NCBI GenBank assembly: GCA_947651225.1
Contig: CANSYK010000009.1
Location: forward strand, 18,765 to 82,764
Direction: 5' to 3'
DNA: 64,000 nucleotides
Origin: an uncultured bacterium
Lineage (GTDB): Bacteria > Bacillota > Clostridia > Lachnospirales > Lachnospiraceae
Under the pieces are notes generated by a model. The model did not search any database. It was not told where the DNA came from and saw only the letters and a program-made list of their open reading frames with translations. Positions 17,625 through 59,765 of this stretch are shown here, piece after piece (position 1 is the first letter of the stretch; each line of letters starts with the position of its first letter). A program made the position numbers and the translations under genes.

Positions 17625-18656
17625 CTATCGTTCCTCTGCCCTGCGAATCCATTTTGCAATTTCTTTTTGTTCCTTTTCAAAAAGCTGTACACAATATATA
17701 TCTGTGTCAGACCCCACGTTTGCAACAACATCACTTGCCATATAATATTCCTTGTTTCCCCTCTGCTGCTGTGTATCCACAAAAATCTGCACCTGATCCC
17801 CCTCTTTCACAATGCCCATCAGAAAATTTTCATGGTATTTATTTTCTATCGCAAGCAAATAACAATTCTCAGGCATATACTCTATTGCCTCTTTCCAACC
17901 CACTTTTTGAAGCTCCTTAATCGGCTGAATGCTCTCGTCCACATACCCATGCTGATATCCTTCCCATGCTCCATAAATGGTATTCTCCTGCTGGAAAAGA
18001 GATAATATCGTTTCTTTTTCCTTTTCTTTCGTATAAACTGCTATTAGTTTATCCGGTTCCGCCTCACTTTTCCCTTCGTAACGTTCCAGTGTAACAGAAC
18101 GGATATCCTTTGCTGATGTAATACCGTAAATCTCTTTACAGACTTCTTCCACATCAGCACGCTCTTCCCCGTCTTTTTCCAGTCTGACACCAGCATAACG
18201 TGCCAGTGCGTAATCATTGTTCCCATTTTTCAACACATAATAATATCTTGACTCCCTGTCTGACAGAGAGTAGACTTCCCATTCTACACCCCCTATATCC
18301 TCCTCTTCCCGCAAAAAGGGTCTTTTCTGGGTTTTCATAAGCCTCACACCTTCTGCAGCCTCTGCCTTTCGGTACGGAATATCAGAGGCTTCCAGTCTGT
18401 TTGACAACTCTGTGTTCAGATATATCACTTCATATTTTAGATTGCTTCCTTTTTCATATACAATCTCTGGCACAGCACCAGCATTCTCCAGCCATTCCTG
18501 TCCATCCTGGTATAACTTTTCAAGTTCCTTTGTTGTCCTGACTGGCCTTTCTTTATAATAGTATGTCAGAAAACCACCAGAAATGCATACTACAAGAACC
18601 ATAAGAATCCCCAGATAAAGCCTTCTCGCTTTCTGGTGCGGATTTACAATATGCAT
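17625..18656 (-). CDS. Membrane-anchored protein downstream of an ECF sigma factor (candidate anti-sigma/regulatory protein)
   Basis: N-terminal TM (RLYLGILMVLVVCISGGFLTYYY), large extracytoplasmic part, co-directional with sigma gene at 18824-19363. Confidence 0.5.
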   Translation of the reverse strand: MHIVNPHQKARRLYLGILMVLVVCISGGFLTYYYKERPVRTTKELEKLYQDGQEWLENAGAVPEIVYEKGSNLKYEVIYLNTELSNRLEASDIPYRKAEAAEGVRLMKTQKRPFLREEEDIGGVEWEVYSLSDRESRYYYVLKNGNNDYALARYAGVRLEKDGEERADVEEVCKEIYGITSAKDIRSVTLERYEGKSEAEPDKLIAVYTKEKEKETILSLFQQENTIYGAWEGYQHGYVDESIQPIKELQKVGWKEAIEYMPENCYLLAIENKYHENFLMGIVKEGDQVQIFVDTQQQRGNKEYYMASDVVANVGSDTDIYCVQLFEKEQKEIAKWIRRAEER

Positions 18657-18823
18657 TTTCCTAATACAATGGTAAATCTTGTCTTCAAACCCCTCTGTAT
18701 ACTCTATTTCCCCTCCTCTTTTTTGTCCATCTGCATAATCCCCCAGCCTGCAGATTGATATACTTCAAAAGCTTCCTTAATTATCTGGTCCTTTTTTCGC
18801 ATCCTGCACTCCTCCTCTCTTCT

Positions 18824-19363
18824 TCATACAGCCTTCAGACTTTGACGCAGTATTTTTCTTCCACGATTAATTTGAGAGCGAATCGTATTATACGGACGAT
18901 TCAGCACATCCGCAATTTCTCTTGGTGACAGTTCATTGAGATAAAAAAGAGAAAGAACCTCCCGATATCCCTCATCCAACTTGTTAATTGCCGCTACAAT
19001 ATAGTTAATCCCCTCTTCCTCACAAATTTTTTGTTCTATATCAAGAATCCCTGCCGGTTCTGCCGCCATCTCATCATAAGAAGCATCTCCTTTCCCCTTT
19101 TTTCGGTAAATATCAATCGCAGCATGGCGCACGACTGTACAAATATAAGAAATTGTCCGATAATCTTCTACTTTGCCAAGTGCATCCATATGCCTTGCCA
19201 TAGAAATAATACTGTTTTGAACCGCATCCTCTGCATCTTCTCTCTGATGCAGGACATCCATTACCACCCACAGCATCAGACTGCCATGAATCCGGTAGAT
19301 TTCCTCTAATTTCTGCTTCGCCCGCTGTTCCCATACCTGTTCTTTTCTCCTCAAATACTGCAC
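18824..19363 (-). CDS. RNA polymerase sigma factor, ECF/sigma-70 family
   Basis: EDAEDAVQNSIISMARHM, HAAIDIYRKKGKG, YREVLSLFYLNELSPREIADVLNRPYNTIRSQINRGRKIL. Confidence 0.88.
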   Translation of the reverse strand: MQYLRRKEQVWEQRAKQKLEEIYRIHGSLMLWVVMDVLHQREDAEDAVQNSIISMARHMDALGKVEDYRTISYICTVVRHAAIDIYRKKGKGDASYDEMAAEPAGILDIEQKICEEEGINYIVAAINKLDEGYREVLSLFYLNELSPREIADVLNRPYNTIRSQINRGRKILRQSLKAV

Positions 19364-19426
19364 CCCCTTTCCGACTCACCCTCTATTATACTGTAACGAA
19401 ACAAAATAAAAAAATGACGCAAAAAA

Positions 19427-19453
19427 TGCGTAACTTTTTAAAAAAGTTACGCA
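19427..19453 (-). terminator. Rho-independent terminator
   Basis: TGCGTAACTTTTTAAAAAAGTTACGCA followed by T-run on the minus strand. Confidence 0.6.
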
Positions 19454-19473
19454 CCTCATTTTCCCTGCTCCTC

Positions 19474-19779
19474 TTACCAACACCAGCAACCTTCTATAAT
19501 CCTGTTTGTGTACATCCAGTCCATTCCTGCCATTCCCATCGCAAATAGCAGCAATATACAGATCATGATAATGGCAGCAAAATCATATTTAAACTGTGAA
19601 TCCTTCCGTCGGACTGCCGCAACAAGCACCTCAATTCCCAGTACCAGAAAAACAATTGGCCACATTCTGAAAATCAAATGATAGGGTATCTCCTTAATAA
19701 ACATCTGCAGAAAAGATACTACTCCATATAAAATCAGCACACTGCCCAGCGTTATTGCCCCTACCCGTCTCTGTTTCAT
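19474..19779 (-). CDS. Small membrane protein (LiaF/LiaI-TM-like)
   Basis: RRVGAITLGSVLILYGVVSFLQMFIKEIPYHLIFRMWPIVFLVLGIEVLV. Confidence 0.6.
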   Translation of the reverse strand: MKQRRVGAITLGSVLILYGVVSFLQMFIKEIPYHLIFRMWPIVFLVLGIEVLVAAVRRKDSQFKYDFAAIIMICILLLFAMGMAGMDWMYTNRIIEGCWCW

Positions 19780-20519
19780 GCCTGCTCCCCCTCATCTTTC
19801 TCCTTGTCGGACTGACCTCCGACATCTGCTTCCTCTTTATCAGAGTATTCCACTACACCCTCTTCTCCTTCATCAGGCTGTTCTTGTGCGTCTTCCTTTC
19901 CTTCTTTATCAAACTGCCCCATCACGTTTTCTTCCTTATGGTATTGCACCATCCATGGAAGCTTTTCTTCTTCCTGCTTCCCATCGCCACCCATAATTTC
20001 TTCTTTTTTTCCCATAATCAAATGAATACCCAAAAAGATAATAACAAATGAAAATACCATTTTAGGCAGATTGTAACGTACCATAATAACAATTGTTGAA
20101 TCCCAGAATAGAAACCCGGCATCCACCAACTGGTCAACCGCAATTTGCAAAAGACTGAAGCTTCCAAAGAAAATCAGCAATATTGCTGCCGGAATCCGGA
20201 ATCCTTTCAGAGAAACTTTATTCATTTCCTTTTTAGAAATAAAAATATATTCATCCTCTAATAATTCTCTTTCTGCATCAGTCAGGGAATTGCGGTGAAG
20301 AGAATCAAAAAAACCAAAAAACCAGATTACCGGCTCCAAAAACAACCATTCATCCATTTGCAAAAATACACATACTGCAAGGCAGGAAAAAAATATTGTC
20401 ATAATACTGACGCCTCTTTTCATATATCCTTGATACATCTGCCCAGCTCCCGGAATCATTGAAAAACATAAGTTCCAAAATCCATTCTTTTTATGCGGCA
20501 TACACTTTCCTCCATTCAT
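19776..20519 (-). CDS. Membrane protein with acidic low-complexity C-terminus
   Basis: NLCFSMIPGAGQMYQGYMKRGVSIM...; tail MGQFDKEGKEDAQEQPDEGEEGVVEYSDKEEADVGGQSDKEKDEGEQA. Confidence 0.65.
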   Translation of the reverse strand: MNGGKCMPHKKNGFWNLCFSMIPGAGQMYQGYMKRGVSIMTIFFSCLAVCVFLQMDEWLFLEPVIWFFGFFDSLHRNSLTDAERELLEDEYIFISKKEMNKVSLKGFRIPAAILLIFFGSFSLLQIAVDQLVDAGFLFWDSTIVIMVRYNLPKMVFSFVIIFLGIHLIMGKKEEIMGGDGKQEEEKLPWMVQYHKEENVMGQFDKEGKEDAQEQPDEGEEGVVEYSDKEEADVGGQSDKEKDEGEQA

Positions 20520-20562
20520 TCAAATACTCTACATACGATTATTACCCCTCTTGTCCTGCCTG

Positions 20563-21141
20563 CTACCTAATATCCCCATCCCATAGTTTCTTCCAAAAAT
20601 CAGCCAGGGTATCCCCAACCGCTCCAGACGCCTCCTGCAAAGAATTGGTAAACTTCTTTCTTTCCTCTTTATCGGAATCCTCTTTCCCCTCTTCCTCTTC
20701 TGAATCCTTTTCTGAGACTGTCTTTCTTACTATGCTGCCCCTCTTAAACAAAAATGTCGTTTTCTCCTGTGTCTGCACAATTTCTTTTGGCAACTGTCCT
20801 GCATCATTCTGAAAAGACATCGTCAATAATATCATAATAGAAGCAGCCATTGCAAAAACAACCCTCATGCTATATGCCAGCAATTCTTTCCTTTGTCTGC
20901 TGTTTTTCTCTGACAAATCCTTAATCAGAAAAACAAAATCCTTCCTGTCAACGGTTTTATCCAGAATTTCCTGCTTTAAATCAGGCGGCGGCGGCAACAA
21001 TATTCCTTTTTCCATATGAACAGCAAAACGACGGGCGCAGCTATCACACATTGCTATGTGTTCCATAACTGCCTGTTCCTCTTTTACCGGCAGCCTGTTT
21101 CCTACATATGCCTGTAACATCTTTTCGCTTATGTGTGCCAT
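20563..21141 (-). CDS. Anti-sigma factor with zinc-finger-like N-terminus
   Basis: EQAVMEHIAMCDSCARRF (HxxxCxxC), one TM, 4 bp into the sigma gene. Confidence 0.75.
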   Translation of the reverse strand: MAHISEKMLQAYVGNRLPVKEEQAVMEHIAMCDSCARRFAVHMEKGILLPPPPDLKQEILDKTVDRKDFVFLIKDLSEKNSRQRKELLAYSMRVVFAMAASIMILLTMSFQNDAGQLPKEIVQTQEKTTFLFKRGSIVRKTVSEKDSEEEEGKEDSDKEERKKFTNSLQEASGAVGDTLADFWKKLWDGDIR

Positions 21142-21674
21142 GAAATCCCCTCCTTTTTTAATTGTTTCTGCAGCATTGCCTTTGCTCTGCGAAGCTGTGT
21201 CTGTATCGTCTTTACCTTTTTATCTAATGCCTCTGCAATCTGCGCCCCTGTCTGGCCTCTGCAGTAATATGCCATAGCCACCTCATTATATGGCGGTTTC
21301 AGATTCCTGCATGCCTGTTCCAGTAAAGACTCCACTTCCTGTTCCATCAAAAGCTTTTCCGGTTCTGCTCCCTCTGCCGGCACAGCCGCAAACACCTTAT
21401 CTTCTGCCACAACTGTCCGCCGTTCTGCCTTTTTCAGATAGTCCAAACATTTATTGGTTGCAATCCTTGTCAGAAACCCTCCTGGATTCTCCCCATCAAA
21501 CTCTGGCAATGCTTTGTAAAACGCAAGAAATGTATCCTGTGTCAAGTCTTCCGCATCAAAATAATTCTGTGTCATGCGGAAACAAATCGAAAAGACCAGC
21601 TTTTCATAATTGTTCAATATTTTGACGAAATATTCCTCTTTGCGCACTGTTTTCAAAATATCGGACTCTTCCAA
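21129..21674 (-). CDS. RNA polymerase sigma factor, ECF/sigma-70 family
   Basis: YFDAEDLTQDTFLAFYKALPEF, GGFLTRIATNKCLDYLKKAERR, YNEVAMAYYCRGQTGAQIAEALDKKVKTIQTQLRRAKAML. Confidence 0.92.
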   Translation of the reverse strand: MEESDILKTVRKEEYFVKILNNYEKLVFSICFRMTQNYFDAEDLTQDTFLAFYKALPEFDGENPGGFLTRIATNKCLDYLKKAERRTVVAEDKVFAAVPAEGAEPEKLLMEQEVESLLEQACRNLKPPYNEVAMAYYCRGQTGAQIAEALDKKVKTIQTQLRRAKAMLQKQLKKEGISWHT

Positions 21675-21744
21675 AACATCACCTCCTTTTTGGCTATCTA
21701 ATATATATAACGAAGTAAACTTGAAAAAGTCTTCAAAAATAAAA

Positions 21745-22077
21745 AAAAGAAGTCCATCTGTTTTTTCCGATCAACAGATGGACTTCTTCCCCCTCAAACG
21801 ATTCTCCCACTCTTCAAAGCTCCCTGACTCCTGTCATACTACTCGTCCGAAATGATTCTTTTTCATTTAAGCATATACGATGCTCTATCCCATAAACTTT
21901 CTTTACTCCTTAGAACTGTGAGTTCCTTCCTAGCACTGCAGTGTTACCATTATGTACCCATACTGTCGGACTGACCAGCCATACGAATGAAAAAACACGC
22001 ATACCCCCTCTATACTTTTATAAAAATCATTTGAACTTTCATGCTCTGCTCGTTCCGCATTCAAGTTCAAATCTTTC
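21745..22077 (-). ncRNA. Putative independently transcribed structured RNA of unknown class
   Basis: No convincing ORF in a ~470-nt intergenic region; -10-like TATACT at 22089-22084 (minus); UUUGAACUU/AAGUUCAAA 9-bp closing helix near the 5' end; several internal hairpins; strong 3' terminator. Confidence 0.5.
21749..21786 (-). terminator. Strong rho-independent terminator
   Basis: GAAGTCCATCTG/CAGATGGACTTC 12-bp stem followed by TTTTTTTT on the minus strand. Confidence 0.85.
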
Positions 22078-22147
22078 TGTAAGAGTATACTAACACATTT
22101 TCACCATTTTAGCACCCTTTTTCGCCGTTAACGGTTTTTTAGTCCCC

Positions 22148-22867
22148 TTAATGGTTATTATTCCTATATTCTGAAAAAAGCTCCTCTATTTTCCTGCGCC
22201 GTCTCCGGGACAACAAAACGATTTCACCATCCCAAAGATAAATTTTTCCATCTATTTCCCTAATTTTGGATAAATTTACAATATAGCTTCTATGGCACCG
22301 AAAAAACATTCTCTCATCCAACTGCTGTTCCCAGCCATTTAATGATAAATCACTGCGATAAGAGGATACTTTTGTATAAACCTCTGTTTCTGAACCTCTT
22401 CCAGAGATATAAAGAATATCCTTCTGGTAAATACTGTATTTTTTCTTATCCCGAAAAACAACAACCTTCTTTTTTTCCAGCAAGGACATTCTGACAGCAC
22501 TTAACGCCTCCTGTATTTCTTCTGTACATACCGGTTTTGTGACAAAACGATACGCACCAACCCGGAATGCATCTTTAAAAACCTCCTCAATACATGACAA
22601 TATGACAATCTTATACTGCCTGTCTCCCTGATTCAGGTGGTATGCCGTTTCAATCCCATCAATCCCAGGCAGACATACAGACAATAACAATACATCCCAG
22701 CAAGGTTGCGCCTCTAAAACTTCCTCACCAGAAAAAAAGTGGTACAATTCATATGCCTCGCCATATTTCCCTGCCCACTCTTCTAAATGCTTTTCGATAA
22801 CCGCATGCGTGACCTCTTCATCATCACAAAGAGCAACCCGCAGCCCCTTCCTTTGTTCCATGCCCAT
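22148..22867 (-). CDS. LytTR-family response regulator with atypical receiver
   Basis: LRVALCDDEEVTHAVIEKHL receiver; LytTR YSIYQKDILYISGRGSETEVYTKVSSYRSDLSLNGWEQQLDERMFFRCHRSYIVNLSKI; Ser at the usual phospho-Asp position. Confidence 0.85.
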   Translation of the reverse strand: MGMEQRKGLRVALCDDEEVTHAVIEKHLEEWAGKYGEAYELYHFFSGEEVLEAQPCWDVLLLSVCLPGIDGIETAYHLNQGDRQYKIVILSCIEEVFKDAFRVGAYRFVTKPVCTEEIQEALSAVRMSLLEKKKVVVFRDKKKYSIYQKDILYISGRGSETEVYTKVSSYRSDLSLNGWEQQLDERMFFRCHRSYIVNLSKIREIDGKIYLWDGEIVLLSRRRRRKIEELFSEYRNNNH

Positions 22868-59479: not shown

Positions 59480-59765
59480 AATATGTTATAGTTACTGCTA
59501 GAAAAGCGAAGAAGAGGAATAGTAACTGTAAAGCGGAATCCAGAAAGCTGTTGGTTGATGGAAAACAGTTGAAGTGATGCAGTGAACTCGCCTTGGAGCC
59601 GCCGGCTGAAAAAGAGTAGGTTCGGACGGAGTCCCACCGTTACAGGGGAAGGGTATTGATGAGTTTTGATGTACCTGTGAGAGCATGAATTATCATGAAT
59701 TAGAGTGGTACCGCGTGAGAAGATTCTCCGTCTCTACAGTTTTTTGTAGGGACGTTTTTTTATGT
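59480..59765 (+). promoter_or_regulatory. T-box leader, Leu (candidate CUC specifier)
   Basis: T-box AGAGTGGTACCGCG at ~59702; AGTGAACTCGCC specifier-loop-like segment; terminator GTCTCTACAGTTTTTTGTAGGGACGTTTTTTT; precedes leuA. Confidence 0.92.

Follow-up and report, generated by a model that had tools for sequence, protein, structure and literature searches.

A candidate lineage-specific regulatory RNA gene beside an orphan LytTR response regulator in a clostridial genus

The segment between a LytTR response regulator gene and an ECF sigma factor gene in an uncultured clostridial bacterium is probably a real RNA gene, uncatalogued and narrowly distributed. In the fuller reading that we favour, and to which we give about even credence, it is a stand-alone, lineage-specific regulatory RNA gene of ~340 nt that is activated by the LytTR regulator and acts in trans. 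The segment lies on the minus strand of the window (the whole stretch of 64,000 nucleotides analysed), where the gene order is LytTR response regulator, RNA segment, ECF sigma factor and zf-HC2 anti-sigma-like protein (Table 1). An earlier, sequence-only reading of this DNA had named a TATACT box (22089-22084), a hairpin (22072-22029), a core, the pairs GGAACU/AGUUCU and AAAUGA/UCAUUU, and a terminator; all of these elements were located at the positions it had given. Further along the same strand, 17625-21674 forms one cluster with two ECF sigma genes (21129-21674 and 18824-19363), the zf-HC2 protein, a LiaF-like membrane protein and proteins lacking a Pfam match. The order of this cluster is the same in the related bacterium D16-51.

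Table 1. Features of the candidate RNA gene and its surroundings (window coordinates)
Feature	Position	Strand	Remarks
Candidate regulatory RNA gene	21741..22082	-	~340 nt; the -10-like box serves to estimate the 5' end
LytTR response regulator, orphan	22148..22867	-	Pfam Response_reg and LytTR; Ser replaces the phosphoacceptor Asp (alignment)
ECF sigma factor, 3' of the RNA	21129..21674	-	Pfam
Conserved promoter/upstream region	22083..22147	-	Invariant runs of 15 nt (22127-22113) and 14 nt (22110-22097)
Possible LytTR direct repeat	22127..22155	-	ACCATTAAG (22155-22147) and ACCGTTAAC (22135-22127), 20 bp apart
5' hairpin	22029..22072	-	AUUUGAACUU/AAGUUCAAAU, loop motif GCGGAAYGAGCAG; compensatory changes; alifold z -3.4
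Conserved core block including GUAUAGAGGGGGUAUGCGUG	21996..22019	-	24-nt run invariant between the two species
Conserved core block GUUCUAAGGAGUAARGAAAGUUUAUGGGAUA	21886..21916	-	Two invariant runs side by side, 14 and 16 nt
Variable site	21870..21884	-	AGCAU-CGUAU-AUGCU in the window; ~129 nt of unique sequence here in the homologue
Conserved block UGAAAAAGAAUCAUUUCGGACGAG, possible small hairpin	21842..21865	-	24-nt invariant run
Intrinsic terminator	21741..21790	-	~20-bp stem, then 8 U; compensatory changes
ECF promoter-like element	~21740-21700	-	TTTTTGAAGACTTTTT...CGTTATATATA (also CGTTATATATAATAG); common to several ECF relatives of the genus

The sequence-only reading had proposed a search for intergenic homologues, and one was found: the single true homologue lies in bacterium D16-51 (RAYE01000008.1), an isolate of the same genus and with identical gene order, so that intergenic conservation is present. 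The D16-51 match falls into two pieces around a stretch of ~129 nt, with which the D16-51 RNA would be ~470 nt long. This insert (L036:5430-5575) is unique and partly self-complementary. It occurs as a single copy in D16-51 and is missing from the window's genome, and thus shows no sign of being a repeated element. Since the insert sits where the window has AGCAU-CGUAU-AUGCU, the suggestion that these letters form a conserved small hairpin did not survive.

Among the 28 genomes sampled from the genus, the RNA and the regulator occur together in two, the window's genome and D16-51. The remaining 26 are without the RNA, and their regulators are at most 42% identical to that of the window. Searches with DNA and with a two-sequence model, which has limited sensitivity to diverged relatives, gave nothing above chance in 397 genomes of the family, 392 of the order and 287 of the class (these samples overlap). 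With a sequence-only model the best scores beyond the window reached ~21 bits at most, and most of the best weak matches in the family lay inside ORFs. A scan of 85,462 species genomes with one motif returned 11 matches, only that in D16-51 being real. No match was found in a phage and plasmid search, and two core motifs sought in viral contigs were not found there. DNA matches in three genomes of the family had been candidate homologues and were rejected as lying in coding genes or being due to chance. The distribution, as far as these genome sequences indicate, appears to be narrow, a small lineage inside one clostridial genus.

Comparison of the window with D16-51 shows which parts of the RNA are kept as structure and which as sequence. 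The 5' hairpin carries two compensatory double changes, two single compatible changes and two broken pairs, and the terminator has three compensatory double changes in 16 pairs. In all there are five double-sided pair changes, versus 0-1 in sliding controls. When pairs are counted on a structure written by hand, 96.7% of cells are paired, although some excess in paired cells is expected because this structure was drawn from the window sequence. The folding z-score of the whole RNA is -4.67, to which the terminator and the 5' hairpin contribute most. Between the two sequences the central helices show little variation and therefore carry no covariation signal; the consensus energy of the core in the two-sequence alignment is no better than that of column shuffles, and the predicted core folds of the window and D16-51 differ. 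Sequence conservation and covariation in both end hairpins are above chance, with covariation limited to what an alignment of two sequences can give; it supports the helices of the 5' hairpin and the terminator, and the central part is conserved as sequence. The proposal of a structured RNA thus finds its support at the two ends, rather than along the whole of some 330 nt. The terminator predicted by the sequence-only reading is present together with its 8 U, but its stem was put too short at 12 bp: it has ~20 bp in the window, and 16 pairs are retained in the homologue too.

Upstream of the RNA, TATACT (22089-22084), or TAGTAT (22092-22087) with TG before it, could serve as the -10 element. 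The -35 is weak, and a consensus scan of 22083..22147 found no full sigma-70 match. Conservation upstream together with a weak -35 is what would be expected of an activated promoter. The first copy of the LytTR-like repeat, ACCATTAAG, overlaps the stop codon of the regulator gene; in each of the two species the repeat agrees with the consensus at 16 of 18 positions, which is no better than chance, since 38 of 300 shuffles (13%) do equally well.

The main rival explanation is a role in cis, in which the segment, rather than being a free RNA, would form a long 3' UTR on the regulator mRNA or a leader from which the terminator controls the ECF operon by attenuation. We consider it unlikely, though it has points in its favour. 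Between the regulator gene and this terminator no other was seen, so that transcripts of the regulator would end there, and the terminator stands just ~66 nt ahead of the ECF start codon. However, the ECF gene has a promoter-like element of its own past the terminator. Several ECF relatives in congeners without the RNA retain this element, and TTTTTGAAGACTTTTT...CGTTATATATAATAG looks like an autoregulated ECF promoter. An anti-terminator pairing was sought and none was conserved between the two species. The promoter-like conservation of the region upstream of the RNA also speaks against a cis-acting element.

The pattern of substitutions tells what is being conserved. Over the 406 nt from the regulator stop codon to the terminator, the window and D16-51 are 79% identical, roughly equal to the coding DNA on both sides; between the same two species, identity at the fourfold-degenerate sites of six neighbouring genes is 50-63%, a comparison of ileS that was out of frame being left aside. 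The 406 nt contain invariant runs of 24, 24, 16, 15, 14 and 14 nt. In simulations with independent sites, at least three runs of 12 arose in ~0.1% of cases at 57% identity and in ~4% at 65%. Substitutions in the RNA are spread over the three codon positions as 23/28/25, without periodicity; in the flanking genes they number 38/20/92 (the regulator gene) and 24/16/58.

A dual-function RNA or small-peptide gene would require translation of the 30-codon frame at 22002-21910 behind the RBS-like GAGGGGGU. This frame is open in the homologue too; both species share its length, its start and stop and the RBS-like sequence, and the RBS and start fall within the invariant block 22019-21996. However, the middle of the frame is shifted in the homologue by two compensating indels, so that the peptide is not conserved: the two peptides differ and the DNA stays similar. 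The codon-position bias of substitutions that would mark a small protein gene is absent as well, and this flat profile indicates that the RNA, and not a peptide, is conserved. Translation of the frame thus appears improbable, and the view that no conserved small ORF explains the region stands. Selection at the RNA level seems the best reading of these comparisons.

The product of the adjacent gene matches Pfam LytTR with 77 bits, and the D16-51 RNA has the same neighbour. At the phosphoacceptor position the window's regulator has Ser (LLLSVCLPG); Asp (LLxD or LFLD) is found there in D16-51 and in four other relatives. Because of this replacement, the window's regulator is probably not regulated by phosphorylation. 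We also read by eye the DNA downstream of the distant regulators (at most 42% identity) at twelve loci of the genus and family. In 10 of the 12, a kinase-like frame encoding an AgrC-like membrane protein follows directly or within ~250 nt. Of the other two, one (L042) is followed by another protein and the second (L043) is cut off by the end of its contig and has a kinase-like gene on its upstream side instead. In the window and D16-51 the RNA occupies the place of the kinase-like gene downstream of the regulator. This position, together with the missing phosphoacceptor Asp, would suit an RNA that binds or titrates the adjacent regulator directly, as a functional partner replacing the histidine kinase. 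But D16-51 has both the RNA and the Asp, which uncouples the loss of this residue from the RNA, and such direct binding seems very improbable.

Comparison with known RNA families gave only chance matches. In cmscan runs of the window RNA and its homologue against all of Rfam 15, with E up to 10, these were mostly microRNA-type models on the terminator hairpin, the best reaching 30.6 bits versus a cut-off of 90. None attained its family's gathering cut-off, the covariance-model score that confers Rfam membership. In the whole window, only one T-box and one tRNA were found at Rfam gathering thresholds; the T-box leader, at 59500-59738 on the plus strand, is above its gathering score. The 6S RNA of this genome (RF00013) is on another contig, with 67 bits, and RF00013 has no match in the RNA region. 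Size and genomic setting would allow the RNA to be a far-diverged relative of raiA, 6S or another known clostridial class, but this is most improbable, as neither sequence has an Rfam match beyond chance and 6S is located elsewhere in the genome. For the same reasons, and with a single homologue in the genomes searched, the idea of a large, widespread clostridial RNA of the 6S or raiA type gained no support. The accompanying idea of a stand-alone RNA outside the catalogued classes was strengthened by the lack of Rfam matches, the intergenic conservation, the compensatory changes in the end hairpins and the absence of a conserved ORF.

The LytTR-activated RNA acting in trans is favoured by the precedents of AgrA-RNAIII and VirR-VR-RNA, taken with the weak -35 and the conserved upstream region. 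In this model, the RNA would be transcribed from the conserved promoter region directly past the regulator's stop codon, most likely upon activation by the neighbouring LytTR regulator. The transcript would stop at its own strong intrinsic terminator, ahead of a separate ECF promoter. Its invariant purine-rich stretches may then mediate action in trans, either pairing with mRNAs or serving as a protein-binding site. We infer its transcription, its activation by the regulator, its action in trans and its targets from the features described above. When the translation starts of six neighbouring genes were examined for complementarity to the RNA, no pairing was convincing in both species. If true, this model adds an uncatalogued, narrowly distributed clostridial regulatory RNA in a small genetic unit of regulator and RNA; it also provides a case in which an RNA occupies the place that a kinase takes beside related regulators.

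Two known systems offer parallels for such a unit. First, the LytTR response regulator AgrA drives RNAIII (PMC4227749). The window RNA would resemble RNAIII in size (a few hundred nt), in its association with a LytTR response regulator and in having a promoter and a terminator of its own. RNAIII carries C-rich loops that mask Shine-Dalgarno sequences. The window RNA is C-poor (12% C) and is thus without obvious loops of this kind; it also differs in having no adjoining agr peptide and kinase genes, no Rfam match and no demonstrated peptide. Second, VirR drives VR-RNA, virT and virU in Clostridium perfringens (PMC2838878); these are regulatory RNAs of a clostridium controlled by a LytTR-type regulator, as the window RNA would be. 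Few genomes carry virT (PMC2838878), as is the case for the window RNA. However, VirR has a cognate kinase, VirS, whereas the window's regulator is an orphan, and no sequence relation to VR-RNA, virT or virU was noticed (these were not directly aligned). Finally, raiA-motif RNA (ModT) is also a clostridial noncoding RNA of a few hundred nt. Whereas its conservation extends over more than 2,500 species (PMC11706538), the window RNA is found in two and has no match in Rfam. The window RNA also shows how lineage-specific RNAs slip past family libraries, which need many homologues.
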